Shown: positions 54,583-59,962 of the stretch, one piece after another
Position numbering within the stretch: position 1 is the stretch's first letter
Layout: the number at the start of each line of letters is the position of its first letter
NCBI GenBank assembly: GCA_947631925.1
Contig: CANRNE010000005.1
Span: 1 to 64,000 of the forward strand
Source: an uncultured Clostridia bacterium
Lineage (GTDB): Bacteria; Bacillota; Clostridia; Christensenellales; Borkfalkiaceae
DNA: 64,000 bases
Reading direction: 5' to 3'
Made by a program: the position numbers and the translations under genes
Notes under the pieces: model-generated
The model's input: the letters and a program-made list of their open reading frames with translations, nothing else
Databases searched by the model: none
What the model was told of the DNA's origin: nothing

Positions 54583-56403
54583 ATGAGTTTCTATTACAAT
54601 CCCACCGACAGGCGCTGCAAATCCATCGTCGGCGCATGCAAGCGGGGAAGTACGATTACATTTCGCATTTTTACGAGCGGAGAGGGCAACTTCTCCGCCG
54701 ATGTCTGCTATTTTGTTCTCTATCAGGACGGGCAGGCAGAGAATGTCATCCCGATGACGAGGACGAAGGACGGCTTTGAAGTTGCGCTCCAATTCCATGA
54801 AATCGGGCTGTACTTCTACTATTTTGCCTTCCCGGAGAACATCTTCCTCGGACGGAGCAAGTTCCGCCTTGCCGCCGTCACCCGTCACCCCGCGAGCTGG
54901 CAGGTGACGGTGTTTGACGAGCGCTACGTTACGCCCGACCGCATGAAGGGCGGGGTGATGTACCAAATCTTCCCCGACCGCTTTGCAAAATCGGGGGAAG
55001 GGAGCGTTCCGCCGCACAAGCGGCTGCGCAGTGATTGGGGCGGCTGTCCGTCCTACCTCCCCGATGAGTACGGAAAGGTCCGAAATTGCGACTTTTTCGG
55101 CGGGAATCTGCGCGGAGTCACCCAAAAACTCGACTATCTCAAGAGTTTGTCGGTAAATCTCATCTATTTCAATCCCATCTTCGAGGCGTACTCCAACCAC
55201 CGCTACGACACGGGCGACTACCGTAAAATCGACGGGCTTCTCGGCACGCTCGAGGACTTTGACGAGCTGATTTCAGAGGGAAATCGGCGCGGCATCGGGG
55301 TAATTTTGGACGGCGTCTTCAACCACACGGGCGACGACAGCCGCTATTTCAACAAATACGGAAGATATGACTCTCTCGGCGCCTACCAGTCCCCGCAGTC
55401 GCCGTATGCGAGCTGGTACACCTTCCGCGAATTTCCGACTTCCTATGAGAGCTGGTGGGGAATCGAGACCCTGCCCGCCGTCAACGAGCGGGAGGACAGC
55501 TACCGCGATTTCATCTGCGGCGAGGGCGGCGTGCTCAAATATTGGCTCTCGCACGGCATCGCGGGCTACCGTCTCGACGTCGCCGACGAACTTCCCGACA
55601 GCTTCCTCGAACTTCTCCGCACCTCTGTAAAGGAGGAAGACGGGGACGCCGTCATCATCGGCGAAGTCTGGGAGGACGCCTCTAACAAAATTTCCTACGG
55701 CGAGCGGCGCAAATATCTGCAGGGAAGAGAGCTCGACAGCGTGATGAACTACCCGCTCAAGGACGGGATTATCGACTTCATGCTCTCGGGAAGATGCGAC
55801 CAGCTGCGCGAGACCGTCTTCATGCTCCTCGACAACTACCCCAAGGAGACGCGCAATGTGCTCATGAATGTGCTCGGCACGCACGATACGCCGCGCATTC
55901 TCACCGTTCTCGGCGGAAAACACTGCAAAACCAAGGACGAAATGGCGGAGACCGTTCTTTCCGAGGATGAAAAAGCGCACGCGAAGGAACTTCTCAAGGC
56001 GGCCGCACTGCTTTCGTACACGCTCTTCGGCGTTCCCTGCATCTACTACGGCGACGAAGTCGGCATGGAGGGCTATGGCGACCCGTTCTGCAGGCGGTGC
56101 TTCCCGTGGGACGACATGGACGAGGAATTGCTCGGCTATTTCAGACTGCTCGGAGAAATACGGACAAAAAGATTTTACGAAGTGTTTCGAGACGGAGACT
56201 ATCGGGAAATCTTTGCCGACAGCTCCTGCCTCATCTTCGAGAGAAGAAAGGAGGGTCATGCCGTGTATGTCTTCTGCAACCGCTCGCCGTCGCAGTACAA
56301 TCTTTCGTTCGACGGCACGTTTGTCGAAGAGCTGACGGGAAAATGCTACACGGGAAGTTTCACCGTCGGGGCGTACTCCTACGGAATTCTTGCAAAAAAG
56401 TAA
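54583..56403 (+). CDS. GH13 alpha-amylase / neopullulanase-like glycosidase
   Basis: 'VMYQIFPDRFAKSGEG', 'GVFNHTGDDSRYF', 'GYRLDVADELPD', 'NVLGTHDTPRIL'. Confidence 0.93.
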   Translation: MSFYYNPTDRRCKSIVGACKRGSTITFRIFTSGEGNFSADVCYFVLYQDGQAENVIPMTRTKDGFEVALQFHEIGLYFYYFAFPENIFLGRSKFRLAAVTRHPASWQVTVFDERYVTPDRMKGGVMYQIFPDRFAKSGEGSVPPHKRLRSDWGGCPSYLPDEYGKVRNCDFFGGNLRGVTQKLDYLKSLSVNLIYFNPIFEAYSNHRYDTGDYRKIDGLLGTLEDFDELISEGNRRGIGVILDGVFNHTGDDSRYFNKYGRYDSLGAYQSPQSPYASWYTFREFPTSYESWWGIETLPAVNEREDSYRDFICGEGGVLKYWLSHGIAGYRLDVADELPDSFLELLRTSVKEEDGDAVIIGEVWEDASNKISYGERRKYLQGRELDSVMNYPLKDGIIDFMLSGRCDQLRETVFMLLDNYPKETRNVLMNVLGTHDTPRILTVLGGKHCKTKDEMAETVLSEDEKAHAKELLKAAALLSYTLFGVPCIYYGDEVGMEGYGDPFCRRCFPWDDMDEELLGYFRLLGEIRTKRFYEVFRDGDYREIFADSSCLIFERRKEGHAVYVFCNRSPSQYNLSFDGTFVEELTGKCYTGSFTVGAYSYGILAKK

Positions 56404-56404
56404 A

Positions 56405-56423
56405 TAGTATGTCTGACATACTA
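56405..56423 (+). repeat. Palindrome related to the CGTGA-loop family
   Basis: TAGTATGT-CTG-ACATACTA. Confidence 0.7.
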
Positions 56424-56442
56424 TACTATGCGTGACATAGTA
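56424..56442 (+). repeat. CGTGA-loop palindrome, copy 3 (3' of the GH13 gene)
   Basis: TACTATG-CGTGA-CATAGTA. Confidence 0.85.
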
Positions 56443-56616
56443 CTAATAAAAATTTTCGATAAAAAAGCAGAAAAAACAATAGTCCAACGGGCGGGAAATT
56501 TCCCGAAAAATTGGCGAAAAAACAAAAAAGACGAAATATCGACAAAACGGGCGGATTGCAAGAAATGGCAAAAAATAAGAAGTTACACCCCTATTTTCGC
56601 AAAAAATCCCTATAAC

Positions 56617-56644
56617 TATTCGTAAAACAATGATTTTACGCATA
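56617..56644. other. Candidate dif-like recombination site (11+6+11)
   Basis: TATTCGTAAAA-CAATGA-TTTTACGCATA; arms match at 10/11 positions; lies directly upstream of the tyrosine recombinase gene. Confidence 0.5.
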
Positions 56645-56737
56645 ATTTGATATTTCCCCACCGCATGAATTTTTTCTTTGGCGGGGAATTTTTTTGCCCT
56701 TTTTTCAAAAATTTTTCTCCCCTAACTATTCGTAAAA

Positions 56738-56767
56738 TTGACATCTCTCCCCCAAGTCTGCTATAAT
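56738..56767 (+). promoter_or_regulatory. Predicted promoter of the tyrosine recombinase gene, -10 ending 6 nt before the ATG
   Basis: TTGACA, 18-nt spacer, TATAAT; ATG at 56774. Confidence 0.65.
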
Positions 56768-57829: not shown

Positions 57830-59029
57830 GTGGAGGAAATCTTCGTCATCCAGCCCGTCTTCGGCGCGGAGGCGGAAGTTCTGCATGCGGAGGCGGTCTC
57901 CCTCATCGAGAGCGCGGGAGCAGCCTATTCGGGGAGCATCTTCCAGAATATCCGCGAGATAGACCCCGCAACCTTCATCGGCAAGGGAAAACTTGAGGAA
58001 GCGGCGGAACTGCTTGCGGAAAAAGATGTCACCGTCCTCTTCAACGGGGACCTCTCCCCTTCCCAGACGCTGAATATTTCCAAGGCGCTCGGCGGAAAAA
58101 AGGTCATCGACCGCACGACGCTCATCCTCGACATCTTCGCCCTGCGCGCGGAGAGCAGTGAGGGAAAAATTCAGGTGGAACTCGCCCAGCTCAAATATCT
58201 CTATCCACGCCTCAAGGGCAAGGGCGAGGCGCTCTCCCGACTTGGGGGCGGAATTGGCACGCGCGGCCCCGGGGAGACGCAGCTCGAGACGGACAGGCGG
58301 CACATTCGCTCGCGCATTCATGCCCTCGAAACGAGGCTGGAAGGCATCGCAAAGCGCAGGACGCTGCTCTCCGAACGCAGAAAAAAAGAGCGGACGATTA
58401 CCGTCGCGCTCGTCGGATATACCAATACGGGCAAATCTACCCTTTTGAACGCCCTCACGGGCGCAGATGTCTTCGTCAAGGATGCGCTGTTCGCAACTCT
58501 CGACCCGACTTCCCGCGCCTTCGAGATAGAGGGCGTGCCCTTTTTGCTCGTGGATACGGTGGGATTTCTGCAGAATCTCCCCCATCACCTCATCGACGCC
58601 TTCCGCTCCACCCTCGAGAGCGCGCTCTCCTGCGACCTTGCGCTCATCGTCTGCGACGCCGCGGGTCAATATGAAATGCAGCTCGAAACCACCCTTTCGA
58701 CGCTCAACGAATTGGGCTTTTCCGCGCCCTATCTCGTCGTCATGAATAAATGCGACGCCGCGCAAAATATCCGCCTTCCCAAGGACTGCGTCGCCGTCTC
58801 CGCAAAGACGGGCGAGGGCCTCTCCCTTCTCAAGAGCCGCATCTTCAGCGCCGTGAAGGACAAATTCGTGCGGGCGGAGCTCTTCGTCCCCTACGCCGAG
58901 ATGGGCGAATTCGGCGCCGTTCGCGGCCTTCTCAACGAGCGAGCCGTCTTCTACACCGACGACGGGGCACGCATCCTCGCCATCATTCCCGCCGTCTATT
59001 CGGAGCTATTCAAGCGCTACCGCACCTGA
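57830..59029 (+). CDS. hflX: GTPase HflX
   Basis: 'GGGIGTRGPGETQLETDRR', 'VALVGYTNTGKSTLLNALTGADVFVKDALFATLDPTSR', 'DTVGFLQNLPHHLIDAF'. Confidence 0.96.
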   Translation: MEEIFVIQPVFGAEAEVLHAEAVSLIESAGAAYSGSIFQNIREIDPATFIGKGKLEEAAELLAEKDVTVLFNGDLSPSQTLNISKALGGKKVIDRTTLILDIFALRAESSEGKIQVELAQLKYLYPRLKGKGEALSRLGGGIGTRGPGETQLETDRRHIRSRIHALETRLEGIAKRRTLLSERRKKERTITVALVGYTNTGKSTLLNALTGADVFVKDALFATLDPTSRAFEIEGVPFLLVDTVGFLQNLPHHLIDAFRSTLESALSCDLALIVCDAAGQYEMQLETTLSTLNELGFSAPYLVVMNKCDAAQNIRLPKDCVAVSAKTGEGLSLLKSRIFSAVKDKFVRAELFVPYAEMGEFGAVRGLLNERAVFYTDDGARILAIIPAVYSELFKRYRT

Positions 59030-59353: not shown

Positions 59354-59962
59354 ATGCTGAACAAGAACAAGCTGATGGATGTGCTCGAGTATATCAACCG
59401 CTTCTCGGAGAACAACGGATTCCCGCCCACGGTGCGCGACATGTGCCGCGACCTCGGCATCAAATCCACCGCGACGGCGTATGACTACATCAACCGTCTG
59501 CGCGATATGGGCTATCTCGAAAAGGCGAGCAACAAAAAGCGCGCCGTTGCCGTCCGCAGCGACGGTTCTGTCCGCGTTCCCCTTCTCGGTACGGTAACTG
59601 CCGGTCAGCCCATCCTCGCCGCGGAGAACTTTGAGGGCTATTATCCCCTTCCCACGGCAGAATTTCGCGGGGACGACCTCTTTTTACTGCGCGTCAAGGG
59701 CGACAGTATGATTGAGGCGGGTATCTTCGACGGAGATAAAATTGTCGTACGCAAGCAGGAGACGGCGCAGAACGGCGACATTGTCGTAGCGCTCTTCGAC
59801 CCCGACGGCCTCGGGCAGGGCGCAACCGTCAAGCGGTACTTCCGTCGGGACGGAAAAGTCATTCTCCACCCCGAAAATTCCGCCCTCTCCGACTTTGTGC
59901 TCGACTCGGACAGCGATGCGATGATTATCGGCAAAGTCGTGGGACTGATGAGAAGTTTTTGA
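59354..59962 (+). CDS. lexA: LexA repressor
   Basis: N-terminal wHTH 'PPTVRDMCRDLGIKSTATAYDYINRL'; peptidase 'VTAGQPILAAENFEGY', 'GDSMIEAGIFDGD'. Confidence 0.95.
   Translation: MLNKNKLMDVLEYINRFSENNGFPPTVRDMCRDLGIKSTATAYDYINRLRDMGYLEKASNKKRAVAVRSDGSVRVPLLGTVTAGQPILAAENFEGYYPLPTAEFRGDDLFLLRVKGDSMIEAGIFDGDKIVVRKQETAQNGDIVVALFDPDGLGQGATVKRYFRRDGKVILHPENSALSDFVLDSDSDAMIIGKVVGLMRSF

Follow-up and report, generated by a model that had tools for sequence, protein, structure and literature searches.

The window, a stretch of 64,000 nucleotides from an uncultured Clostridia bacterium, contains a 28-base palindrome upstream of a gene for a single Xer-type tyrosine recombinase. The genes hflX and lexA follow the recombinase gene, and an amylase-like gene lies on the opposite side of the palindrome (Table 1). 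The original prediction, made from the letters of the window, described two 11-base arms with 10 complementary positions around a 6-base centre, about 130 bp upstream of a tyrosine recombinase gene. Both statements are confirmed: the arms pair at 10 of 11 positions around CAATGA, shuffles of the window gave 0 matches to the site at up to three mismatches, and 129 bp separate the end of the site from the ATG of the recombinase gene, which is complete. A scoring matrix made from relatives finds no second site within the window. The genome assembly is fragmented (75 contigs, 1.9 Mb, with the site on a contig of 84 kb); across it the whole site occurs once (core pattern defined below, at most one mismatch), and the exact arm TATTCGTAAAA occurs three times, at 56617, at 56727 and on another contig. 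In relatives, the conserved sequence reaches about 3–4 bases past each 11-base arm.

Table 1. Features of the locus and of phage-like elements at equivalent sites in relatives
Feature	Coordinates	Strand	Basis
Amylase-like gene, opposite side of site, conserved neighbour	54583..56403	+	Open reading frame; synteny
Dif-like recombination site, 11-6-11	56617..56644	+	TATTCGTAAAA CAATGA TTTTACGCATA
Extended conserved form of the dif-like site	about 56613-56648	+	Conservation in relatives
Extra half-site TATTCGTAAAA abutting the -35 box, putative autoregulatory operator	56727..56737	+	Sequence; shuffles
-35 box TTGACA	56738..56743	+	Sequence; layout in relatives
-10 box TATAAT, 6 nt ahead of ATG	56762..56767	+	Sequence; layout in relatives
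Single Xer-type tyrosine recombinase, 351 aa	56774..57829	+	NCBIfam, Pfam, alignment
hflX (GTPase), conserved neighbour	57830..59029	+	TIGR03156 above cut-off; synteny in relatives
lexA, conserved neighbour	59354..59962	+	TIGR00498 above cut-off; synteny in relatives
Filamentous-phage-like prophages at the site	G066:C4:85961-93559; G061:C22:22577-29536; G054:C57:25160-29454
Gokushovirus-like genomes carrying or abutting the site	L327:263-4690; L344:1-5318		IMG/VR

A second type of palindrome, the dispersed TATGTCWGACATA, lies nearby at 56408–56439, where two copies (one imperfect) directly follow the amylase gene. It is also found on other contigs of the same genome (G000:C3, C5, C12, C18 and C56), with 16 genome matches at up to one mismatch and 8 exact, versus 3 for the reversed control. 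It may serve as an operator, or it may be a repeat element.

The recombinase carries the Pfam domains PF00589 (Phage_integrase) and PF02899 (N-terminal SAM-like). Residues R198, K222, H293, R296, H319 and Y329, which we take to be the catalytic set (RKHRHY) expected of the recombinase family, are invariant in an alignment of 17 orthologues. An AlphaFold model (mean pLDDT 83, pTM 0.58) matches Xer-type recombinases in the PDB with TM-scores of 0.4–0.5 because domain placement is uncertain, and the model was therefore left out of the classification.

Site and recombinase are conserved in relatives. Among 121 genomes of the organism's family, 102 have an orthologue of the recombinase, exactly one each. 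A site pattern with three mismatches allowed was dropped because in many genomes it did no better than its reversed control, and we adopted TNCGTAAAA-N6-TTTTACGNA as the core pattern, allowing no more than one mismatch. This pattern is present in 99 of the 121 genomes, mostly as a single copy, with few matches to the reversed pattern. Both elements occur in 90 genomes, the recombinase without the site (at this stringency) in 12, the site without the recombinase in 9 and neither in 10 (Fisher p = 1.8e-4), an association partly confounded by assembly quality, to which missing contigs contribute. Conservation upstream of orthologous genes, a check proposed with the original prediction, is borne out: the site precedes the gene by 65–2925 bp in 69 of the 80 named loci, several of the others having no upstream sequence, and is found upstream in 69 of the 74 with at least 300 bp of upstream sequence. 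Where records carry a name, they belong to uncultured Clostridia of gut origin; one is Candidatus Scatosoma pullicola.

The consensus of the site across relatives is about AACTATTCGTAAAA-GCTGTG-TTTTRCGAATAGTT. Its 6-bp centre is conserved and polar, mostly GCTGTG or GCTGCA, and the gene-proximal outer arm is the better conserved one. The surroundings are conserved as well. The order glgP-amylase-site-xer-hflX-lexA is common to G042, G055, G099 and G117, and G066 has the same order save for an inserted block; the amylase-like neighbour is across the site in G042, G055, G066, G099, G117, G002 and G088. In other families of the class, 31 of 148 genomes have an orthologue (E <= 1e-60). Many of these carriers have a recognisable site with the centre ACAAG, and some have altered arms at the same place (e.g. 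TATCGGATAAA-TATCTG-TTTTTCCGATA), as expected if enzyme and arms drift together.

We also looked for an XerC/XerD pair, a canonical dif and FtsK, as the original prediction had suggested. The Firmicutes (Bacillus subtilis-type) dif consensus has 0 matches at three mismatches in 61 genomes. The strict XerD cut-off is uninformative by itself because just 4 of the 14 control genomes reach it. In several genomes of 90–99% completeness (e.g. G027, G002, G007, G016, G036, G046, G049 and G057), the sole match to the XerD model is this recombinase. The window's genome has further tyrosine recombinases, mostly integrase-like, on short contigs and apparently mobile; none of them scores above the XerC or XerD cut-off. 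A conventional XerCD/dif system, which has two recombinases and an asymmetric 28-bp dif, does not describe the locus. FtsK with a gamma domain (PF09397) is encoded in the window's genome and was found in 19 of 21 genomes.

The position of the site relative to the replication terminus was assessed from GC skew. In G064, examined over 800 kb, the maximum of cumulative GC skew is 303 bp from the site, and the plus-strand coding share over 20 kb on each side falls from 1.00 to 0.16. By a change-point fit, G064, G099, G055, G088 and G002 have their skew switch no more than 4 kb from the site. In G066, where 7.7 kb separate site and gene, the switch falls 133 bp from the former and 7.9 kb from the latter, following the site rather than the gene. 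Overall, the switch falls 0.1–4 kb from the site in the six relatives with contigs long or skewed enough; skew is weak in G117 and G042. The original prediction that the terminus lies here thus stands for these relatives, whereas the window's own 84-kb contig has almost no skew and its best change-point is 10 kb away. The plus-strand coding share on that contig drops from 0.83 to 0.22 across the site. Since gene order is shared with the relatives, we infer by synteny that the site marks the terminus in the window's genome as well. Known KOPS-like motifs (GAGAAGGG, GGGNAGGG) are few and polarised only in part; octamers with a skewed distribution, GAAGAGGA among them, change strand at the site, and no KOPS candidate exceeds the general strand bias.

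We interpret the palindrome as the probable dif site of a one-enzyme Xer module for chromosome-dimer resolution at the terminus, and put the probability of this reading at roughly 0.93. The evidence is wholly computational: the site itself, its conservation and single copy, its terminus position in relatives, the one recombinase, the FtsK gamma domain and the prophage ends described below. The original prediction had proposed a one-recombinase dimer-resolution locus, and the conservation, the skew in relatives and the lack of matches to a canonical dif support it. In this scheme, a pair of recombinase molecules made from the neighbouring gene would occupy the arms. FtsK would bring the two sites of a chromosome dimer to the division septum, where they would synapse, and would probably also activate recombination. 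Strand exchange across the 6-bp centre would then give two monomers, in the manner of XerS/difSL and XerH/difH.

Among the closest known systems is XerS/difSL of streptococci and lactococci, which has one recombinase of ~350 aa, a site directly upstream of the gene, a terminus location and FtsK (PMC5357621). The present locus resembles it in having one ~350-aa recombinase, an adjacent upstream site, a terminus position as judged from relatives, and FtsK. It could belong to the streptococcal XerS/difSL family proper, with the same enzyme and type of site, inherited or transferred, which we consider unlikely. XerS (NF003462) is the best NCBIfam model for the recombinase and the top model by E-value for all 17 orthologues tested, the lengths are close (351 versus 356 aa), and the gene adjoins the site. 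However, the score is 181.6 bits versus a curated cut-off of 267; the XerC, XerA and XerD models rank after XerS, each match being under its own cut-off. The sites differ too: difSL is 31 bp long with an 11-bp centre and the unequal arms TTTCCGAAAA and TTTTCTTGAAA (PMC5357621), whereas the present site has a 6-bp centre and near-perfect, near-symmetric arms of another sequence, in a lineage of uncultured Clostridia. Because the protein falls below the cut-off and the site architecture differs, we do not class the system as XerS, a comparison based on the NCBIfam model and the review PMC5357621 rather than on a tree. The resemblance to XerS noted in the original prediction accordingly holds for the best-matching model and stops short of its cut-off.

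The promoter of the recombinase gene shows a further recurrent feature. Outside the dif site and no more than 130 bp from the start, 44 of 76 loci have an additional half-site of matching orientation, where shuffles predict 1.1; half-sites in the opposite orientation near the start number 12 in the same count. The layout of -35 box, -10 box and start recurs in 46 of the 76 loci, versus 0.4 in shuffles, and in all 46 the gap from -10 box to ATG is 4–9 nt and holds no Shine-Dalgarno-like motif. In the window, the -10 box is so close to the ATG that the mRNA should have little or no leader. The simplest reading is that the recombinase mRNA would be leaderless and its promoter occluded by the recombinase. 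A half-site copy adjoining the -35 box and recurring among loci suggests autoregulation, in which the recombinase may bind this half-site in addition to the dif site and so limit its own transcription. As an alternative to dimer resolution, the palindrome could be a transcriptional operator only, for recombinase autoregulation or for control of a neighbour, in agreement with its upstream position, its symmetry and the matching half-site on the promoter. We find this highly improbable: the site can lie anywhere between 65 and 2925 bp from the gene, and up to 7.7 kb away, the GC-skew switch of G066 tracks the site instead of the gene, the 6-bp centre shows both conservation and polarity, and mobile elements insert at the site.

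A filamentous-phage-like block of 4–8 kb separates site from gene in G061, G054 and G066. As in filamentous phages, the blocks encode Rep proteins (PF01446 or PF01719) together with small membrane proteins. They also encode Zot-like ATPases (PF05707), above cut-off in G066 and below it in G054; G061 has none by Pfam. In G066, each end of the block (85961 and 93559) carries AAATTATTCGCAAAATCATTGTT, which comprises the arm, the centre and two further bases; this duplication up to the centre is the footprint of strand exchange by a tyrosine recombinase. The block of G054 is flanked by two sites with the right arm in common. On the IMG/VR contig L327, a gokushovirus-like genome (major capsid, Rep) stops 21 bp before the site, and the contig runs on into the host chromosome with serS and an orthologous xer. 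A separate microvirus contig, L344 (Phage_F capsid), has a high-scoring site. We propose that single-stranded DNA phages of related bacteria, of filamentous type and gokushovirus, integrate through the same site and enzyme. Also highly improbable as an alternative is that the site is a phage attachment site only and the recombinase a domesticated integrase with no role in dimer resolution: the filamentous-phage-like blocks and the gokushovirus are located there, but site and gene are kept in nearly all genomes without any phage, the site is a single copy per genome at the terminus, retained in the family and in other families of the class, and several genomes have no other Xer.

Other phage-related matches were seen in the same searches. 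High-scoring dif-like palindromes (39–48 bits) occur on the IMG/VR contigs L313, L316, L330, L334, L336–L339 and L347, in L339 and L347 near terminase genes; these contigs possibly come from larger phages that borrow the host Xer. Many other IMG/VR pattern matches have low site-matrix scores and probably arose by chance. Zot (PF05707) matches are mostly distant from the site, in loci that lack it. The window's genome itself encodes a Zot-domain protein away from the dif site (G000:C6:70220-70417), which probably marks a filamentous prophage, or what is left of one, integrated at another place.

The proposed dimer-resolution module can be compared with other single-recombinase systems. Like XerH/difH of Helicobacter and Campylobacter, it has a site-linked single recombinase of similar size and arms with inner AAAA/TTTT. 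Unlike in that system, the arms differ from AGTTATGAAAA and AAAAGTTTGA of difH and the protein is only weakly similar to XerH (PDB 5jjv, phmmer E = 5.7e-5); a close relationship was rejected, as 5jjv ranks behind XerA and XerD chains. XerL/dif of Legionellales is alike by description, with a single recombinase, a perfect or near-perfect dyad site and discovery through integrating mobile elements (PMC9765430). In Legionella pneumophila, however, xerL is more than 400 kb from dif, whereas site and gene are adjacent here.

Small single-stranded DNA phages that lack an integrase, namely CTXphi-type filamentous phages and gokushoviruses, are known to be integrated at the host dif. They use XerCD for this, as integrative mobile elements exploiting Xer (IMEX; PMC5357621 for CTXphi, PMC7062461 and PMC3091885 for Microviridae at dif). 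A mobile element at a one-enzyme dif is also already known, Legionella LME-1 (PMC9765430). The phages described here are similarly small single-stranded DNA phages at a host dif; they differ from the XerCD cases in that their hosts, uncultured Clostridia, would have a system with a single recombinase. Our search of the open-access literature found no paper on this system. The chances are about even that these loci form a class-wide, previously undescribed single-recombinase Xer/dif family that combines a leaderless gene and half-site autoregulation and serves as the integration machine for at least two unrelated kinds of single-stranded DNA phage (filamentous and gokushovirus).

Single-recombinase Xer systems are known mainly from streptococci and lactococci, epsilonproteobacteria, Legionellales and archaea. 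The present system would extend this list to a large assemblage of uncultured Clostridia from the gut, and it has a site sequence of its own. In metagenome-assembled genomes, the site would mark the terminus precisely; as a natural attB, it would also be a means of finding integrase-less single-stranded DNA prophages and tying phages to their hosts. With near-symmetric arms, a polar centre and a promoter half-site, it may also offer a compact model of ordered strand exchange and dose control by one recombinase.
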